Source of the DNA: a virus
DNA length: 29,188 nucleotides
IMG/VR virus record: IMGVR_UViG_3300023112_000074
Coordinates: 1 to 29,188 of that record
Direction: 5' to 3' (one strand)
Part shown: positions 93 through 12,211 of the stretch, piece after piece
How the letters are laid out: the number at the start of each line of letters is the position of its first letter
Position numbering within the stretch: position 1 is the first letter of the stretch
Program-made: the position numbers and the translations under genes
The notes under the pieces: generated by a model
Databases searched by the model: none
Told to the model about the DNA's origin: nothing
Seen by the model: the letters and a program-made list of their open reading frames with translations, nothing else

Positions 93-227
93 TTACTTCC
101 TCCTTAGTTGTTTATCAGTGCGTACCCAAGCACGAGCAAAAGACTTGCGGTTTTGCTCAGGCATTTTTCGTAACTTATCTTTGAACTCTGCTATTTGTTC
201 TGCTCTTTCTTTCTTACTCACAGCCAT
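93..227 (-). CDS. Small basic hypothetical protein (44 aa)
   Basis: A 44-codon frame begins MAVSKKERAEQIAEFKDKLR and ends in a lysine/arginine-rich tail. Its ATG lies inside the last codons of the upstream gene (10-nt overlap, 218-227), and the next gene starts 2 nt after its stop, so it fits a coupled operon gene. The composition (about one third Lys/Arg/Glu, no hydrophobic stretch) suggests a helical charged protein, possibly nucleic-acid or protein binding. I do not recognise a family. Confidence 0.55.
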   Translation of the reverse strand: MAVSKKERAEQIAEFKDKLRKMPEQNRKSFARAWVRTDKQLRRK

Positions 228-796
228 GACTTAACACCATTAACCATAGTAAACATCTTACTCTTGTCCGGGTTGCCATCCGACCCAAAGCACACAGCTA
301 AGCTGCCACCTCTGTCCACCATATTGATAACGTGCTCAAGTCTTGCCTTGTCCCTGTTGTCATACTTCTTAAACACATTGCGTATGAACCCAACACCTAG
401 CTTGGTGTGCTTACACACTATGCCATTCTTATATGGTGATGCTTTGAAGTTATTGCCAGCTTCATTGTAGTCAATACCCTGCACTGTGTCATTGCGCAAA
501 GCTATCATAGCTTTAATATCTTCCTCTACTGCAACAGGTACCTTCCATGTAACTAGCTTCATTGAACCACCAGTGCTCATGTATATGTGACCAAGCCCAT
601 AGTCCACACATATGCATCGGAACAGTGTAGAGATGGCACCCGACCTACTTGGCATTACTCCCATGCGCAGTGCACGCACCAATGATTTCTTTTTGCGGTC
701 ACTCAACTTACCAAGGTTGAATGCTGCGTAGCCTGACACCTCTAATATGTCATCGAGTTCTTTAACTGTACTTACTGCGAAACATTCATCTAACAC
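218..796 (-). CDS. Hypothetical protein (192 aa)
   Basis: The best start is a GTG at 796 (GTG TTA GAT GAA) with a GGAGAG site about six bases upstream, so the first residues are MLDECFAVST. The start lies inside the last codons of the upstream gene (11-nt overlap). The protein has mixed alpha/beta character, no membrane segment and no motif I recognise. It belongs to a set of four unrecognised proteins encoded directly after the VWA/metallopeptidase gene. Conserved operon position suggests a role linked to the AAA+/VWA module; that is inference only. Confidence 0.75.
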   Translation of the reverse strand: MLDECFAVSTVKELDDILEVSGYAAFNLGKLSDRKKKSLVRALRMGVMPSRSGAISTLFRCICVDYGLGHIYMSTGGSMKLVTWKVPVAVEEDIKAMIALRNDTVQGIDYNEAGNNFKASPYKNGIVCKHTKLGVGFIRNVFKKYDNRDKARLEHVINMVDRGGSLAVCFGSDGNPDKSKMFTMVNGVKSWL

Positions 797-1514
797 GCTG
801 CTCTCCTACTGTTATACACATAGCCTGCTCTCGGTGATCCAACTGTGGTTTAAGTGTGCCAAATGCCAGCACACTTATTGCATCAGCTATTCTTGCTGGT
901 GTTGCCTTATCCTCTGTGTCTAGCACAGGTGCTCGGCTCCTACGCTCAGCACTAGCAAGAGTAGATGACAGGTCACTTGGTACAAAGTCCATGATGTTAG
1001 GTATTACTCGTTGTATCTGCCCAACGCTTGAACATTTATATACTATGTGCCTGAGTGTGCCTTGTGCCCTTGCCACCCGGTCAGCTATAACTAAATGGTT
1101 GTTGCCAAAGCTAAGCAAAGAGTTGTGTAGTGGGTGGGATGGGTGGACCCTAAACATTTCATCGGGTAGTGAGTACCATCCGTCATCACCCTCTAGCTCA
1201 GTACCAAATGACAGTTTAATGCCAGCGGCTTTCATTATGTGGAAATGCATACTGGAGGTAGTGCTTATAACTTGGTACCTATAGCGGCGGCGGGTGCTGC
1301 TGGTACCAGCAGGCATAGCAGCCATTGCCGTGGTCTCTACCAGCTTGAGTGCTTTGCACATGTCATTGGGTATTAGTGTCTTGATGAAATTGATTCTACC
1401 CATACCTACTTTATTTATTGGGTCTTCAGGTAGGTACAGCAAGCGGTCACATATATTGTAAAGCCTAGTGTTCAAAGAATTCTTATCATCTCTACTTAGT
1501 CTAGCTGTTGCCAT
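786..1514 (-). CDS. Hypothetical protein (242 aa)
   Basis: The frame runs from ATG at 1514, preceded by AAGGGAGAG eight bases upstream, to a stop at 786. The start is one base after the previous stop. The N-terminal part is rich in Arg/Asn (MATARLSRDDKNSLNTRLYN) and the middle has an STRRRYRYQVIST segment. No catalytic motif, signal peptide or membrane helix is visible. I do not recognise the family. It is part of the block downstream of the VWA protein. Confidence 0.75.
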   Translation of the reverse strand: MATARLSRDDKNSLNTRLYNICDRLLYLPEDPINKVGMGRINFIKTLIPNDMCKALKLVETTAMAAMPAGTSSTRRRYRYQVISTTSSMHFHIMKAAGIKLSFGTELEGDDGWYSLPDEMFRVHPSHPLHNSLLSFGNNHLVIADRVARAQGTLRHIVYKCSSVGQIQRVIPNIMDFVPSDLSSTLASAERRSRAPVLDTEDKATPARIADAISVLAFGTLKPQLDHREQAMCITVGEQRVR

Positions 1515-1515
1515 A

Positions 1516-2136
1516 TTACTTACTCTCCCTTGGTACTATAGATACAGTTTGTTCACCGTGGTTATCATATGCAACTCTAAATGTTGGCTGCGCTTCTACC
1601 AGTTCTAGTAGCATACCAACAGATTCATCATCAACAGGCAGTACAGTGTGCACCATGTTCCTAACTCCGGTACGAGTTAGGTCATGTGTAGTTACATGCA
1701 GTGTGCTCAAGGATAATTGGCATTGTGTGTAGTTACTCCAATTATTGACATATGTTCTATCCATCGAAGCTACTTTTTCTTCTATCATTTTTTTCTGTAT
1801 GGTTCCAAGCGCAGCGAATGAACTACGCAGTTCACATAATTTACCAGCACCCCCCTTGAAGTTAGTGTGTATTGCTAGCTGCCCTCCCTTGTCATATGTA
1901 CCCCACCACTTAGGCTGGGTTGCTTGGCACATCATAGAGTAGACATGCCCAACCATACTTTGCAAACCACCTACACTTATGCCGTGGTGTATAGTCTTGT
2001 TGAGTTCCTTGTCCATGTTTTTTGACATGCGCTGCCAAGGTGAACCTTCAAACATTATGTTAGTATTATTATTAACGTAATGGTAAGCTGGTCCCTTTAG
2101 GTAGAACTTTACTATGTGGTCATCAATGTGACGCAT
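1516..2136 (-). CDS. Hypothetical protein (206 aa)
   Basis: ATG at 2136 is preceded by GGAGG and a closer AAGGGAA. The frame overlaps the upstream gene by 25 nt and ends one base before the next. The protein contains a Trp/Tyr/Gly-rich central part (PKWWGTYDKGGQLAIH) and an acidic hydrophobic C-terminal segment. No known domain is recognised. The context is the same as the two genes downstream: a co-transcribed set behind the AAA+/VWA module. Confidence 0.75.
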   Translation of the reverse strand: MRHIDDHIVKFYLKGPAYHYVNNNTNIMFEGSPWQRMSKNMDKELNKTIHHGISVGGLQSMVGHVYSMMCQATQPKWWGTYDKGGQLAIHTNFKGGAGKLCELRSSFAALGTIQKKMIEEKVASMDRTYVNNWSNYTQCQLSLSTLHVTTHDLTRTGVRNMVHTVLPVDDESVGMLLELVEAQPTFRVAYDNHGEQTVSIVPRESK

Positions 2137-2507
2137 TTCCCTTGTGCCTCCTGTTCAGCGTTGATAGCTGCTACTAATAAATCGAGTGGCATGTATGCAA
2201 ACACCCACCCATCATCTACTGACCCCGCATGATTATTAAGTATGCCTCGTGTGATTAAGTCAGCGTGTTCAATCCCATTTATACCTACCTCCACATGTGT
2301 CCATGCCCCTTTGTTATCTCTTGGCGTGCAGTAGTAATACTCGCTGGCTTGTATTGAGAAACTAACCTTACCTATAACTAGTGGTTGCCGCCTGATGCTG
2401 CCGTAGTTAGCTTCAGTTGTCTTAGTCATCATCAACCAAGCAGACAACACGTCTTCTGTTATCATGGCATGTTGTTGGCAAGCAAAGTGCGGCCATCCAT
2501 TATGCAT
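2112..2507 (-). CDS. Hypothetical protein (131 aa)
   Basis: ATG at 2507 overlaps the last codons of the VWA gene (ATGCATAA, 8 nt), with an AGGGCAGG purine stretch just before it. The protein begins MHNGWPHFACQQHAMITEDV and has mixed composition with no obvious domain. An internal ATG fifteen codons in (MITEDVLSAW) could be the real start. Its tight coupling to the VWA protein argues that the two act together, but no function can be read from the sequence. Confidence 0.65.
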   Translation of the reverse strand: MHNGWPHFACQQHAMITEDVLSAWLMMTKTTEANYGSIRRQPLVIGKVSFSIQASEYYYCTPRDNKGAWTHVEVGINGIEHADLITRGILNNHAGSVDDGWVFAYMPLDLLVAAINAEQEAQGKCVTLMTT

Positions 2508-3672
2508 CCTGCCCTACATGCAGCCGGATAGTCTCGCCGTGACTGGCAACCTTGTCTGAAGTACACACCCATATGGTGGGGTATGACTGCGCATCACCGA
2601 AGGCAGTGTAACCATCAGTTAAGATAATCAATACCTCAGGCTCGTTGTCTATCTCAGCTAGCTTGTCAAAGATTGCAGGCATGTGAGTACCACCACCACC
2701 CTTAGGCTTGTAGGTAAGTATGTCACCAGCATCTTCAATCAACTCAGGCTCGTAAGCCTCGCTGTCACATGAACCTATCCACAGTTCCTCAGGTTTCATC
2801 TCACTGAATAGTCCGTGACACTCACCCATGAAGTGCTTCAACTCCTGATCGCTGACTGACCCTGATGTATCAATGTACATAGCAACCTTGCCACATGAGT
2901 AGCCTGTCTTACCGGGCCAGTACACATGCGGGATGATAGCCAGTCGCCTACGATTAGGCTTGGCCCATGTTGTCTCATCCTTACCAGCTATGGCATTGAT
3001 AGACAGACGCAGCTTGTCCTGCCACTTGACTTGCGGCTCAGCAATCTCACCTACTAGCCTCTCCATACCAGCAGGCATCTTGCCTTGCGACTTGGCGGCC
3101 TCGCTTGCACTAGCAACCGCACGTTGTATGTCAGCCTTGGTAGGCTGTTGTGTGGGGTTGCCCGGTAGATGTTGATCGAACCCATTAGACTTATCAGGTG
3201 GTGGCTCAGGCACCTTAAGGTACACATCATCAGCCAGATCAGCCTTACCAAACCGTGGGTTGTTAAGCCCACCAACGGGGCACGTGCCTACGTTAGATTG
3301 ATTCAACCAGTCATTGATGATGTAGTCAGTAGCATGATTCCACCTGCCACCACTGAATGCTTTCAGGTCTGGGCCTACACCCCGGTCCATGTATCCTTTC
3401 ATACGTGGACAGTGCTCAAGGATAACGTGCATAACTTCATGTGCTAGCACGAACACCCTCTCATCAATGTCTAGGCTGCCAAACCATTTCTTGTTTACTA
3501 TTAGCTTGGTACCATCAGTAGCAGCAGTAGGTACTGGTACGTTAACACTGGTGTTACCTCCCTCCTCAACTTCCTCGATGCTAAGCAGATCAAACAGTAG
3601 TACCGCAAAGAACGGGTGCTGTCCTATCAGTCGGCTGATCGCCTCACTTAGCGGGTAGCTTCGTTGTGCCAT
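2500..3672 (-). CDS. Zinc-metallopeptidase-like / VWA-like domain protein (DUF2201 type)
   Basis: This 390-aa protein has two recognisable halves. Residues about 5-125 carry a zinc-peptidase helix, HEVMHVILEH (HExxH at 78-82), followed by a WNHATDYIIN segment near 111-120, as in the DUF2201 putative metallopeptidase domain. Residues about 260-385 form a VWA-like fold with a MIDAS signature DTSGSVS (268-274), a downstream Gly-rich GGGGTH with the conserved Thr (329), and LTDG (352-354). The family pairs with MoxR-type AAA+ ATPases, and one is encoded upstream here. The start is ATG at 3672 behind a perfect AAGGAGG site. All expected metal-binding residues are present, so it looks active. Substrate and partner are unknown; remodelling or maturation of a host or phage complex is the usual hypothesis for MoxR/VWA pairs. 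Confidence 0.9.
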   Translation of the reverse strand: MAQRSYPLSEAISRLIGQHPFFAVLLFDLLSIEEVEEGGNTSVNVPVPTAATDGTKLIVNKKWFGSLDIDERVFVLAHEVMHVILEHCPRMKGYMDRGVGPDLKAFSGGRWNHATDYIINDWLNQSNVGTCPVGGLNNPRFGKADLADDVYLKVPEPPPDKSNGFDQHLPGNPTQQPTKADIQRAVASASEAAKSQGKMPAGMERLVGEIAEPQVKWQDKLRLSINAIAGKDETTWAKPNRRRLAIIPHVYWPGKTGYSCGKVAMYIDTSGSVSDQELKHFMGECHGLFSEMKPEELWIGSCDSEAYEPELIEDAGDILTYKPKGGGGTHMPAIFDKLAEIDNEPEVLIILTDGYTAFGDAQSYPTIWVCTSDKVASHGETIRLHVGQDA

Positions 3673-3853
3673 TAGTTACCTCCTTTTTAACATTAGGATC
3701 AAACCGATCCATTACTTCACGGAAAACTAAAATGTCATAGGCTGTTAGGTCGTACCCAATATCAACATCGTCTTCCATCGTTTCAACTATAACGCTCATG
3801 GTGCCAGCCAAATCTTCATCAGTCATATTGGCTGGGTTCTCATGGTCATGCAT
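3644..3853 (-). CDS. Small acidic hypothetical protein (69 aa)
   Basis: ATG at 3853 sits two bases after the stop of the DUF3150-like gene and has no clear Shine-Dalgarno of its own, so coupling is likely. Its 3' end overlaps the start of the VWA gene by 29 nt and contains that gene's ribosome site. The protein is strongly acidic (MTDEDLAGTMSVIVETMEDD) with a basic tail. No family is recognised. It always sits between the two module components here, so it may be an adaptor or simply a spacer gene. Confidence 0.65.
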   Translation of the reverse strand: MHDHENPANMTDEDLAGTMSVIVETMEDDVDIGYDLTAYDILVFREVMDRFDPNVKKEVTNGTTKLPAK

Positions 3854-3855
3854 AG

Positions 3856-4986
3856 TTAGTTAAAGAACACGTCATCAAAGTCCATTGACTTTAACATCGC
3901 ATCCACTTCTTCACTGTTATCTTCAACAGCTTCTTCTTCCTCTGCCTCGACGGTTGGTGCCTCGACTATTTCACACTCAACATCAGTCTCAACACCTTCA
4001 GCAACAATCACCTCAGCTTCATCGGACTGGGCTAGTACACCCACCTCTGTCTTCACTGGAGTGGTTGCTACTACCACTGGCACTACTGCTATCCTGCCAA
4101 CAATCTCCTTGGCATGAGTAGCTACGACACCGGCTAACGATACGTTGTCTTTGTACGCTGACGAGTCATACTTAAGTAGCTTGGTTTCTATCTCTGTTGC
4201 TAGCAAGTCAAGAGCAGGGTCATTACGCAAGTTGTTGTTGCGTAACATCTGCACCATGTGTTGCAAGTTACCAGTGAGAGACTTATACACACGAGTCTTC
4301 TCACCTTTAGATAACTTAGTGAGCTGCGTGACCATGCGGTTGAGTGCATCAAGGGTACGCTGTTGCATTTCCTTGAGTGCATTATCAATACATGTGTCTG
4401 CCTGCTTAGCATACAAATCCTTCAAGCCAACGGTCAGCTTGCCCGGTATAGTTAGCCGGTCAAAGTCCTGTATGTCAGGCAGTGGTGCCACGTTAAGCCC
4501 CGCATCAAACAACACTGCTAACTCCGCTGGGTCAGGGTAGTTTGTCTGATCGTACATGGTGCCAAGATTCGCAGCGGCCTTGGACATAGCAGAAGGTAGT
4601 GCTGCTATGAACTTGTCGCGTGCTAACTCAGCTTCTTTCTTAAGGTTAGCGAACTCACCTAGCTTACCCATCACATCACCAGTAGCAATAAGCCTATCGC
4701 CTCGTGCACCTCCCGCATTATTGGAAGTCCACTGCAAGCTGTTGGCATAGAACCAGTTGCGAATGTGATTGTATGCTGCCTGCACCTCTTTCAGTTCTGC
4801 ATCTGCACCGGCAAAGAGTTTCTTAACGAAAGCCCCTGCATCTGACACTGCACCTGACTGACTGATAATACTTTCAGTCAGTTGCTTGTCAGTCTTGCGA
4901 CCGGAATAGACACGAACTGAGCACGATGCCAGCATGTAGCTGGATGACAACGCATTACTTAAGTTGTCATCTTGTTTATTTTCCAT
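3856..4986 (-). CDS. DUF3150-like protein of the AAA+/VWA module
   Basis: This 376-aa protein has an N-terminal segment with SVRVYSGRKTDKQL near residues 23-36, a long helical middle, and a highly acidic C-terminal tail (runs of Glu around residues 335-365). The 'vrvwsGrk' segment, the length and the position between a MoxR-like ATPase and a VWA/metallopeptidase gene match phage DUF3150 proteins as I remember them; I could not run a domain search. The start is ATG at 4986 with GAGGAG seven bases upstream. The acidic tail resembles tails that dock on AAA+ rings or on basic partners. Function is unknown; a bridge between ATPase and VWA protein is a reasonable inference. Confidence 0.75.
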   Translation of the reverse strand: MENKQDDNLSNALSSSYMLASCSVRVYSGRKTDKQLTESIISQSGAVSDAGAFVKKLFAGADAELKEVQAAYNHIRNWFYANSLQWTSNNAGGARGDRLIATGDVMGKLGEFANLKKEAELARDKFIAALPSAMSKAAANLGTMYDQTNYPDPAELAVLFDAGLNVAPLPDIQDFDRLTIPGKLTVGLKDLYAKQADTCIDNALKEMQQRTLDALNRMVTQLTKLSKGEKTRVYKSLTGNLQHMVQMLRNNNLRNDPALDLLATEIETKLLKYDSSAYKDNVSLAGVVATHAKEIVGRIAVVPVVVATTPVKTEVGVLAQSDEAEVIVAEGVETDVECEIVEAPTVEAEEEEAVEDNSEEVDAMLKSMDFDDVFFN

Positions 4987-4988
4987 AC

Positions 4989-5051
4989 TTAGTCTCCTCT
5001 CTTATTGTCTTCATCTTTCCACAATTCCCACTCGGCTACCCCGGTAGCCAT
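4989..5051 (-). CDS. Possible 20-codon ORF between ATPase and DUF3150 genes
   Basis: A frame starting at ATG 5051 overlaps the ATPase stop (TAATG) and encodes MATGVAEWELWKDEDNKRGD before TAA just upstream of the next gene. It has no independent ribosome site. The first codons form a short palindromic hairpin. It could be a real leader-type microprotein, or simply the sequence carrying the hairpin and the ribosome site of the next gene. The evidence is weak. Confidence 0.3.
   Translation of the reverse strand: MATGVAEWELWKDEDNKRGD
5034..5049 (-). other. Short intercistronic hairpin
   Basis: GGCTACC and GGTAGCC face each other across two bases, giving a 6-bp stem with a CGGG loop in the minus-strand transcript immediately after the ATPase stop codon. 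No T-run follows, so it is not a classical terminator. It may be an mRNA processing or stability element that sets the ratio of ATPase to downstream proteins. Confidence 0.35.
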
Positions 5052-6139
5052 TAGCTGTTGGTAGTAATAACCAATGCTTTGTTGTTGCTAATCCAGTTGC
5101 TTAACGCTTGGCTGTTCAACAGTATGCCGCCTGCCTTATCAAGCAGAGACTTAGCAGCACTGGTCTGCAACTCAACAGGCAACCGCTCAACGTAGGTCCA
5201 CAGTGAGTTCACTGTCTTGTTGTCGGCATAGTGGATGCATAGCTGTACTGCCATGTACGCAGCGTCCAAACGGTCAGGACATTTGCAACCCTTAGGGTCT
5301 TTGAGAATCTCATCGACCGTAGGTACGTGTTCCTTCAGCTTGGCATAGCTTGTCAACTCAGCAGCCACACCCTCACCTATCTCACCGGCAAGTAACTGTT
5401 GTGTCACACCATCACTCGGCAAGTCCATGCTTGGGTTGCCTTGATCGTCAGTGCCAGCAAGACAAGCAAGCAAGTGCATCGCCTTGGTGTATGACCGTGG
5501 TGTACAGAATGGTACGGGCTTAGCAGGTACATGGTCAGCGAACACACCGGGACGGTGCTTGATGAACGCTACGCCAATAGGGTGCATGTTGTTTGCTTCC
5601 CACCACAGCGCGGCTGACTGAAGATCGTACTCAACATCAATCTGTCGCTCTCTATTTATTAAGTGCATCGGTGGCTTAACAACACCTGACTTGTCTTCCA
5701 TGCGATTACTAGCACTGACAACCATCCAGCCATCGGGTAGGTACTCACTACCAAACTTCTTATCCAAGACAACAGGTGCTAGTGCCTTCTGTACATCAAG
5801 GTTTGATTGGCTGCGCTCATCAATGAAGTAGATGCCACGCGGGTGCGCTTCAAGGTATTCCCGTGTTGGTAGGATACCCGGTCGAGTAAAGTAACTAATA
5901 CCACGGCCCTGCTCATCCTTACTTGGGACGAGAAAGCCACGCACATCAGGTGCCTCAATGGTGGTGGTAGTTTCTTCATGGTAACCAAATGTTTCACCGT
6001 ACACCTTGGATAAGATAACCGGCAACTCTCGTGCCAGTGTAGACTTGCCAATGCCCGGAGCTGAAACCCAATGCTCAGCGGTACCCACTTCGTAGCGGGC
6101 CTTGAGCATGGTAGGGTTACTTAGATCACGTAAATACAT
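5051..6139 (-). CDS. MoxR-like AAA+ ATPase
   Basis: This 362-aa protein has a Walker A motif SAPGIGKST at about residues 26-34; the usual first Gly is Ser. It also has a Walker B motif GIYFIDER (102-109), a sensor-1 Asn in SASNRMEDKSG (143-152), and arginine-finger candidates in INRERQ (161-166). The DVRGF segment near 65-69 is typical of MoxR-type ATPases. The start is ATG at 6139 with AGGAGG upstream, and a strong promoter lies about 60 bases farther up. It heads a unit whose third and fifth frames are the DUF3150-like and VWA/metallopeptidase proteins. The expected activity is ATP-driven remodelling of a partner together with the VWA protein, in the cytoplasm. CobS/CobT-like metal chelatase partners are related in organisation, but nothing here shows metal chelation. 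Confidence 0.9.
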   Translation of the reverse strand: MYLRDLSNPTMLKARYEVGTAEHWVSAPGIGKSTLARELPVILSKVYGETFGYHEETTTTIEAPDVRGFLVPSKDEQGRGISYFTRPGILPTREYLEAHPRGIYFIDERSQSNLDVQKALAPVVLDKKFGSEYLPDGWMVVSASNRMEDKSGVVKPPMHLINRERQIDVEYDLQSAALWWEANNMHPIGVAFIKHRPGVFADHVPAKPVPFCTPRSYTKAMHLLACLAGTDDQGNPSMDLPSDGVTQQLLAGEIGEGVAAELTSYAKLKEHVPTVDEILKDPKGCKCPDRLDAAYMAVQLCIHYADNKTVNSLWTYVERLPVELQTSAAKSLLDKAGGILLNSQALSNWISNNKALVITTNS

Positions 6140-6162
6140 AGTGCCTCCTAGTATTACGTTGT

Positions 6163-6188
6163 TGGTGGTGGAAAAAGCAGCACCACCA
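6163..6188 (-). other. Leader hairpin upstream of the ATPase gene
   Basis: TGGTGGTG and CACCACCA form a perfect 8-bp stem around a 10-nt loop (6171-6180) in the predicted 5' leader of the ATPase transcript, about 15 bases upstream of its ribosome site. There is no T-run on the minus-strand exit side, so a role in mRNA stability or regulation is more likely than termination. Confidence 0.45.
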
Positions 6189-6204
6189 TCTGCTTAGGAA
6201 ACTA

Positions 6205-6233
6205 ATTATAACATAACGGGGTGTTAATGTCTA
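6205..6233 (-). promoter_or_regulatory. Sigma70-type promoter with extended -10 for the AAA+/VWA module
   Basis: Read on the minus strand there is TAGACA (6233-6228), a 17-bp spacer, and a perfect TATAAT (6210-6205) preceded by TG at the extended -10 position (TGTTATAAT). The -35 box differs from consensus by one base and overlaps the stop codon of the upstream gene. Transcription should start near 6198, giving a leader of about 60 nt before the ATPase ATG. This separates the module from the small-gene string upstream and lets it be expressed by host polymerase. Confidence 0.75.
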
Positions 6234-11524: not shown

Positions 11525-12124
11525 CTACGCGGCCTTGCGACCTTCCGGCAATGCGGCGGGGCGAGTGAGCAACCGGGCATTGTTGTATGCCTTGTCAATC
11601 TGTGCCTCGCTGTTACCGGCCTTGCGTGATTTAGCTAATACCAGCTTGAACGCTTCAGCCATTTTGAAGTCAGCCTTGGATGATGCCTTCTCCGCTGCGT
11701 TCTCGTTGTCGAGTGCCATGCGGAGCAGCTTTTCCCAGACTGGTACAGCTACTAACGTCCCATCAGCTTGCTTGTATTCAGACATTTCGCGGAGTGCAGC
11801 CAACTTATCTTTGTCAGCTTTGCCCGTGAATGTCTCAGCATCGGCTATGTATTCAAAGGGTATCAGTCCTTGAGAGAACTCCTCACCAACTGATATACTT
11901 GTGAATACACGCTTCACGAACCGGAACCGCTTGAATTGTCGCGCACCTTCCAACACCTTGTCGAAGTGTGCGGTGTCGCCGGAGTCGAAACCCTTGGCGA
12001 CGTGATTAGCAATCCAGTCCTCGAAGCGTTTGGCTACCTTAGCTGCGCCGCCTTCGATGAAGTAGACATCCGCTGCTTTGAGTTGCTTTGCTGTGAACTG
12101 CTTGAACAGTGTGATTTTATTCAT
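11525..12124 (-). CDS. Unrecognised protein of the control region (199 aa)
   Basis: I place the start at ATG 12124 (MNKITLFKQFTAKQLKAADV) because AAAGGA lies nine bases upstream; the open frame extends to 12190, but that part is leader. The protein is Lys/Ala/Glu-rich and mainly helical, ending LPEGRKAA. It contains no known catalytic or DNA-binding motif that I can see. It sits alone in the divergent control region between a repeat array and a hairpin, flanked by inverted repeats. This position suggests a regulatory or replication role, or an independently acquired gene. The size and composition would fit a DNA-binding or structural early protein. Confidence 0.75.
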   Translation of the reverse strand: MNKITLFKQFTAKQLKAADVYFIEGGAAKVAKRFEDWIANHVAKGFDSGDTAHFDKVLEGARQFKRFRFVKRVFTSISVGEEFSQGLIPFEYIADAETFTGKADKDKLAALREMSEYKQADGTLVAVPVWEKLLRMALDNENAAEKASSKADFKMAEAFKLVLAKSRKAGNSEAQIDKAYNNARLLTRPAALPEGRKAA

Positions 12125-12155
12125 GTCATTTATTCCTTTCAGTGTTACTCGTGAG

Positions 12156-12180
12156 TGCGAGTGCCACCTACAGAAAATCA
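12156..12180 (-). repeat. 25-bp inverted repeat, right copy, in the leader of the 199-aa gene
   Basis: Read on the minus strand, TGATTTTCTGTAGGTGGCAC and the next five bases match 11471-11495 with three transitions. It lies 32 bp upstream of the ATG at 12124 and directly after the strong hairpin. Confidence 0.75.
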
Positions 12181-12211
12181 GGCCGCTCAATCGTGTGGAC
12201 TTGAGCGGCCT
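12180..12211 (-). other. Strong 11-bp hairpin (attenuator or leader RNA element)
   Basis: AGGCCGCTCAA (12180-12190) and TTGAGCGGCCT (12201-12211) form a perfect GC-rich stem around a 10-nt loop. In the minus-strand transcript it is followed by GATTTTC, a short T-run, and lies about 55 nt before the 199-aa gene. It could be an attenuator for that gene or part of a small RNA; on the plus strand no T-run follows. Confidence 0.6.

Follow-up and report, generated by a model that had tools for sequence, protein, structure and literature searches.

What does a phage do with a MoxR-type AAA+ ATPase encoded beside a metallopeptidase–VWA protein, and what does the protein encoded between the two contribute? 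The question is raised by a module in IMGVR_UViG_3300023112_000074, a complete 29,188-bp IMG/VR virus record analyzed here over its whole length (the window). A DUF3150-family protein is a regular third partner of the ATPase/peptidase–VWA pair, an association that is new here. Judged by homology, the phage module and a module of conjugative plasmids are the same trio. The original prediction, made from the window sequence, described four genes, and all four open reading frames (ORFs) are present on the minus strand:

5051..6139, minus strand: MoxR/AAA_5-type AAA+ ATPase, 362 amino acids, orthologue of N4 gp24; PHROG 1297, invariant AAA+ residues
3856..4986, minus strand: DUF3150-family third component, 376 amino acids; helical core (1-301), disordered acidic linker, C-terminal tip SMDFDDVFFN resembling that of single-stranded DNA-binding protein (SSB)
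3644..3853, minus strand: acidic protein, 69 amino acids, net charge -10; no relatives found; missing from the closest relative, L007
2500..3672, minus strand: metallopeptidase (PF13203, HExxH)–VWA (PF09967, metal ion-dependent adhesion site, MIDAS) fusion, 390 amino acids, orthologue of N4 gp25

The label "acidic" given earlier to two of these products also fits, with net charges of -20 for the DUF3150-like protein and -10 for the 69-residue protein.

The third component is a divergent DUF3150 protein

The middle protein of the window has no PF11348 (DUF3150) match in Pfam at E 0.1, and single-sequence Pfam and NCBIfam matches (FliS at 4e-3, RACo) were dismissed as noise. The absence of a Pfam match of its own makes it a divergent relative of DUF3150 and not a Pfam-defined member. 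A tblastn search with this protein matches a DUF3150-annotated protein of Synechococcus phage MinM2 (E 1e-5), and 9 of 36 phage family members match PF11348 themselves, the best at 2e-5. When the 36 phage proteins are compared with seven plasmid DUF3150 proteins by hhalign, the probability is 97 (E 1e-10), against 0.1 for an unrelated control. The AlphaFold model of the window protein has a predicted local distance difference test (pLDDT) score of 85 and is largely disordered over residues 307-351. It matches, at E 1e-13 and with a template modelling (TM) score of 0.80, a phage protein that carries the name DUF3150; a PDB fold search with the model found no solved relative. Profile–profile comparison and predicted structure together confirm the homology to DUF3150, as the original prediction had proposed.

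Following an acidic disordered linker, the protein ends in SMDFDDVFFN, and the corresponding ends in two relatives are PDFDEDEFMFSA (L007) and SLDFNPDDFML (L013). Similar acidic-aromatic ends (DDDGDYFF, DDDETIMVF, DEEEDVDSWF) occur in most of the seven proteins from plasmids; for comparison, the SSB tip of IncC plasmids is WDDDIPF. A loosely defined acidic-aromatic tip occurs in five of the seven plasmid proteins versus 6% of background ORFs. The window tip, MDFDDVFF, might attach to SSB-binding enzymes or supply the MIDAS with an acidic ligand, and it is suggestive only, because most other phage DUF3150 members are without it.

The ATPase and the peptidase–VWA protein

The window ATPase carries the P-loop SAPGIGKST (residues 26-34), in which serine replaces the first glycine, a swap shared with N4 gp24 and a Rhizobium phage homologue. 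It also has a Walker B motif (FIDE, 105-108) and the sensor-1 residue N145; the P-loop, the Walker B DE, N145, R163 and R215 are invariant in an alignment of the ATPases of eight phages. The protein matches PHROG 1297 ("ATPase", E 4e-54), N4 gp24 over its full length (E 2e-48) and plasmid MoxR/CbbQ (AAA_5) ATPases (E 5e-11). Pfam gives nothing at E 0.1, so the protein has no AAA_5 (PF07728) match of its own, and its phage homologues in MinM2 and SBP1 are barely over the AAA_5 cut-off. The Walker A and B motifs, sensor 1 and the plasmid alignment bear out the predicted MoxR-like ATPase. PDB sequence searches with the ATPase and the VWA protein returned nothing useful. The ATPase homologue of phage PA5oct (L004, 984-2099) is flagged "ESI-MS/MS" (electrospray ionization tandem mass spectrometry) in its record, which hints at a possible place in the virion of that jumbo phage.

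The VWA protein matches PF13203 (E 2e-35, 123 bits against a cut-off of 23.2) and, on the same chain, PF09967 (E 1e-14, 55 bits against 26.4); its match to N4 gp25 (E 5e-47) is full length. Both the HExxH residues H78, E79 and H82, with H87, N112, D116 and N120, and a complete MIDAS (D268-S270-S272, T329, D353) are invariant in 40 relatives. Its predicted model (pLDDT 89) matches VWA folds, including BatB and the Rea1/MDN1 MIDAS domain from MIDAS–UBL complexes. The proposed fusion of an HExxH peptidase with a MIDAS VWA domain is borne out by these domain matches and invariant residues, and the protein is shown on sequence grounds to be a predicted zincin-type metallopeptidase fused to a VWA co-factor.

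Members of this family are often labelled "HNH endonuclease", as in PHROG 1314, the N4 gp25 record (L109, 3165-4307) and many Vibrio phages. No HNH domain was found, and the label is rejected because Pfam assigns DUF2201_N (3e-87) and DUF2201 (1e-46) to N4 gp25. On DUF2201 peptidase–VWA proteins it is a propagated misannotation.

Conservation of the trio and exchange of the third partner

Conservation in other phages was surveyed in the best 80 of 564 VWA-protein relatives in IMG/VR, a sample biased towards the window's kin. The ATPase gene is seen in 71 of the 80 loci, most of the remainder being cut by contig ends, and DUF3150 in 38, all from uncultured viruses; both always lie on the strand of the VWA gene (71/71 and 38/38). 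The order ATPase–DUF3150–VWA occurs in 33 loci and DUF3150–ATPase–VWA in four, while two loci found with a DUF3150 query (L010, L011) have ATPase–VWA–DUF3150. L007 and L013, whose VWA proteins are 61% and 50% identical to that of the window, both keep the ATPase–DUF3150–VWA arrangement. The trio thus recurs in other phages, one of the points on which the original prediction had staked itself.

Other loci have a different protein between the ATPase and VWA genes. A ~73-residue acidic protein occupies this place in 17 loci lacking DUF3150, the clade of Rhizobium phage RHph_TM3_14A (L001, L014, L016-L019, L021, L022, L025-L031, L039, L042). In 12 loci it is an Nmad5-family protein (PF18757, E 3e-8; 216-260 amino acids; L033, L034, L041, L055, L059, L069-L071, L076, L077, L082, L087). 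A point mutation in Nmad5 lets a Dhillonvirus escape the Tmn defence (PMC11846954). Iterated profiles found no hidden DUF3150 in loci with only the pair. The third component tracks clades of the VWA tree (13 changes versus 42 in shuffles), and the 73-residue clade is nested within the DUF3150-bearing group that contains the window, which suggests that the third partner was replaced in related phages, with DUF3150 exchanged for Nmad5 or the ~73-residue protein.

Among isolated phages, the VWA protein is found in 680 records, the ATPase in 438 and DUF3150 of the window's kind in only three. The phage DUF3150 family has no match in PHROG; with this near-absence from isolated phages, it follows that phage annotation misses the family.

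The trio on conjugative plasmids

Of the plasmid records, 1,139 carry canonical DUF3150, and 983 of these are typed as conjugative; the pCAR1 protein matches PF11348 at 8e-92. AAA, DUF3150 and VWA genes lie together in pCAR1, IncC pVC1447 and Providencia, Citrobacter and Marinobacter plasmids, and these five trios are adjoined by RecT/Bet, lambda-exonuclease and sometimes SSB genes (within ~20 kb in pCAR1). The VWA proteins of the pCAR1/IncC type have an N-terminal HExxH with invariant H57-E58-H61 that aligns to the phage peptidase region. CbbQ_C is present in the plasmid ATPase, and the VWA protein of IncC has a CobT match. Burkholderia plasmid pBMC401 has a Pfam-checked AAA–DUF3150-like–DUF2201 operon. 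Genes for an ATPase, a DUF3150-like protein and a "VWA-like" protein are also found on Rhodovastum and Simplicispira plasmids; in Simplicispira the ATPase gene lies ~3.6 kb away. Aromatoleum plasmid 1 has DUF3150 without AAA, VWA or recombination neighbours of the pCAR1 kind, and a scan of genome collections with a single-protein query found no bacterial relatives. DUF3150-bearing Burkholderia and Aromatoleum plasmids (L096, L103) have a PRTRC cassette adjoining or near DUF3150.

The pCAR1 MoxR and VWA genes are conserved in R478, Rts1, SXT and R391 (PMC2642839). In SXT, the Red-like operon is under SetCD control (PMC4344509, PMC2791158), and deletions of bet, exo, s067, s068 and s070 reduce transfer by up to 10-fold (PMC2791158). 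By IncC gene order alone, s067 and s068 would correspond to the DUF3150 and VWA genes.

Polymerase context in phages

In 53 loci the sequence continues for 5 kb or more downstream, and these were scored for downstream genes. In 47 of them a PolA-type DNA polymerase gene comes after the module on its strand, at a median of 1.9 kb, and in none is it on the opposite strand; with loci clustered at 50% identity, 14 of 18 independent clusters show this context. In L013 the polymerase lies downstream of the module, and in L007 it lies at the far contig end, which on a circular genome would be 3-4 kb downstream. N4 gp24 and gp25 precede genes for dCTP deaminase, helicase, polymerase, primase and SSB. 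They are core genes of N4-like phages and are transcribed as middle, not late, genes (PMC4193335).

Transcription unit and genome setting

The module was also said to have its own strong promoter, and such a site is present. It lies with the downstream genes as follows:

6205..6233, minus strand: promoter TAGACA-17-TATAAT with extended -10 (TATGTTATAAT); 11/12 consensus match plus TG; same element 5' of the L007 ATPase gene
218..2507, minus strand: four downstream genes (131, 206, 242 and 192 amino acids), overlapping or abutting; probably on the same transcript as the module

No site of this quality arose in 200 simulated 12-kb sequences, and weaker promoter-like sites in the window are no more frequent than expected by chance. 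L007 has TAGACA-16-TATACT with TG in the same place; no equivalent precedes the L013 ATPase gene. The strong promoter stands, but the independence ascribed to it holds only in part, as the unit is not closed. The stop codon of an upstream gene on the same strand falls in the -35 box, with no terminator seen, and the VWA stop (2500) overlaps the start of the next gene (2507), followed by three more overlapping or abutting genes down to 218. Both read-in and read-out are therefore likely, and a longer transcript probably includes the module. In the window and in L007, hairpins in the leader that separates the promoter from the start codon are no better than those of shuffled sequences. In L007, a palindrome (CTGACAAGTCCTTGTCAG, ~5560-5640) just 5' of the ATPase-gene promoter is a possible operator.

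The left 12 kb of the window consists chiefly of small minus-strand genes, and the right half holds the terminase, portal and major capsid genes, on the plus strand. The major capsid protein shares 57% identity with that of the 61-kb Rhizobium phage RHph_TM3_14A, with further relatives in Pelagibacter and Roseobacter phages. In L013, a weak homologue (E 3e-4) of the 242-residue downstream protein is encoded 3' of the module. Outside the module, a minus-strand ORF of 221 amino acids (11525-12190) has no match in PHROG and is homologous to a sequence close to the end of L007 (E 5e-9).

Proposed function

The same trio beside DNA-copying genes in phages and DNA-recombination genes in plasmids suggests a DNA-handling job and not particle building. 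The favoured reading, to which we give an even chance, is an ATP-driven remodelling or protease machine that acts on replication–recombination complexes, with DUF3150 as adaptor. Substrates would be captured by the MIDAS of the VWA domain and pulled on by a ring of the ATPase; the metallopeptidase would cut them, and DUF3150 would bring the machine to its target. Rea1 and RavA–ViaA are models for MIDAS-dependent substrate capture by an ATPase ring. The likeliest targets would be nucleoprotein complexes on element DNA during replication or recombination, so that replication or recombination proteins, or host proteins on the DNA, may be cleared or matured. A narrower version, in which DUF3150, through its SSB-like tip or otherwise, recruits the AAA+-driven metalloprotease to proteins stuck on phage or plasmid DNA, is distinctly improbable as stated.

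Several observations weigh against a machine acting on replication–recombination complexes. Polymerase adjacency may mean common timing without a common function; just three of ~43 phage DUF3150 proteins (window, L007, L013) have the SSB-like tip; and phages with the pair only, the Nmad5 type or the 73-residue type make DUF3150 dispensable in other lineages. The mass-spectrometry flag on the PA5oct ATPase, and the virion proteins that roseophage RPP1 encodes next to its gp24/gp25 homologues (PMC4193335), favour instead a chaperone or peptidase that folds or cleaves structural proteins. Such a virion-assembly role was proposed for jumbo phages by Iyer et al. 2021 by analogy with MoxR–VWA proteins of Acidianus two-tailed virus (PMC7824862). 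A purely virion-assembly role is nevertheless unlikely, because the full trio occurs on conjugative plasmids, which make no virions; moreover, the phage trio precedes DNA polymerase, the window module is on the strand opposite the structural genes, and the N4 copies are not late transcripts.

It is similarly doubtful that the trio is a counter-defence or host-takeover machine that acts on a host protein of defence or metabolism by unfolding or degrading it, in the manner of MoxR–vWA ternary conflict systems. Phages and plasmids both face host defences, the third component is swapped between lineages, and conflict systems with MoxR–vWA and a variable third partner are known (PMC7159879). However, a PADLOC defence-system search gave no match, the polymerase context is conserved, and the pair belongs to the N4-like core genes, which would be unusual for accessory counter-defence. 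Least probable, and by our estimate very unlikely, is a factor that matures a phage or plasmid enzyme with a metal or cofactor, like CbbQ/CbbO, NorQ/NorD or CobS/CobT. CbbQ_C on the plasmid ATPase and the CobT match of the IncC VWA protein point that way, but no consistent metalloenzyme partner was seen nearby. To our knowledge, moreover, DUF3150 is missing from those systems, and no peptidase domain has been described on their VWA partners.

That phages and widespread conjugative plasmids, including IncC, share these three components narrows the role of the machine to a need of both kinds of element, for which N4 in E. coli K-12 and pCAR1 in P. putida KT2440 are tractable models.

Comparison with known systems

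The ATPase/peptidase–VWA pair itself is already known from N4-like and jumbo phages. The original view, of a chaperone-like system for remodelling proteins that lacks an established target in phages, is right, but the pair had been described, as N4 gp24/gp25 (PMC4193335) and, by Iyer et al. 2021, in jumbo phages (PMC7824862). As far as the literature searched shows, the phage trio, its sharing with conjugative plasmids, the polymerase and recombination context and the partner swapping appear not to have been described, and no paper in that literature names DUF3150.

N4 gp24 and gp25 are adjacent genes and full-length orthologues of the window ATPase and DUF2201 peptidase–VWA protein. In N4, no DUF3150 gene lies between or beside them, whereas the window pair is split by DUF3150 and small genes. 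The group 2.2 jumbo-phage pair has the same two-protein architecture, with the metallopeptidase N-terminal on the vWA protein; the accessible part of the source presents it as a pair for virion assembly and gives no DUF3150 partner or plasmid link (PMC7824862). Ternary conflict systems likewise combine a MoxR ATPase, a VWA protein and a third partner (VMAP, iSTAND or FtsH; PMC7159879), but those partners are unrelated to DUF3150. The window has none of them and no variable effectors, and its VWA protein consists only of peptidase and VWA, with no effector domains.

In logic, not ancestry, Cdc48–Wss1/SPRTN would be the counterpart of a protease that clears proteins stuck on element DNA. Plasmid pBMC401 shares the gene order and the DUF2201_N/DUF2201 protein type of the window; unlike the window, its trio is on a conjugative plasmid, adjoining PRTRC and type IV secretion genes. 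pCAR1 ORF101-103 and the IncC genes have the same three components, including the N-terminal HExxH on the VWA protein, which differs in being longer (~600 amino acids), of VWA/CobT and not DUF2201 type, and tied to RecT/Bet–Exo recombination genes.

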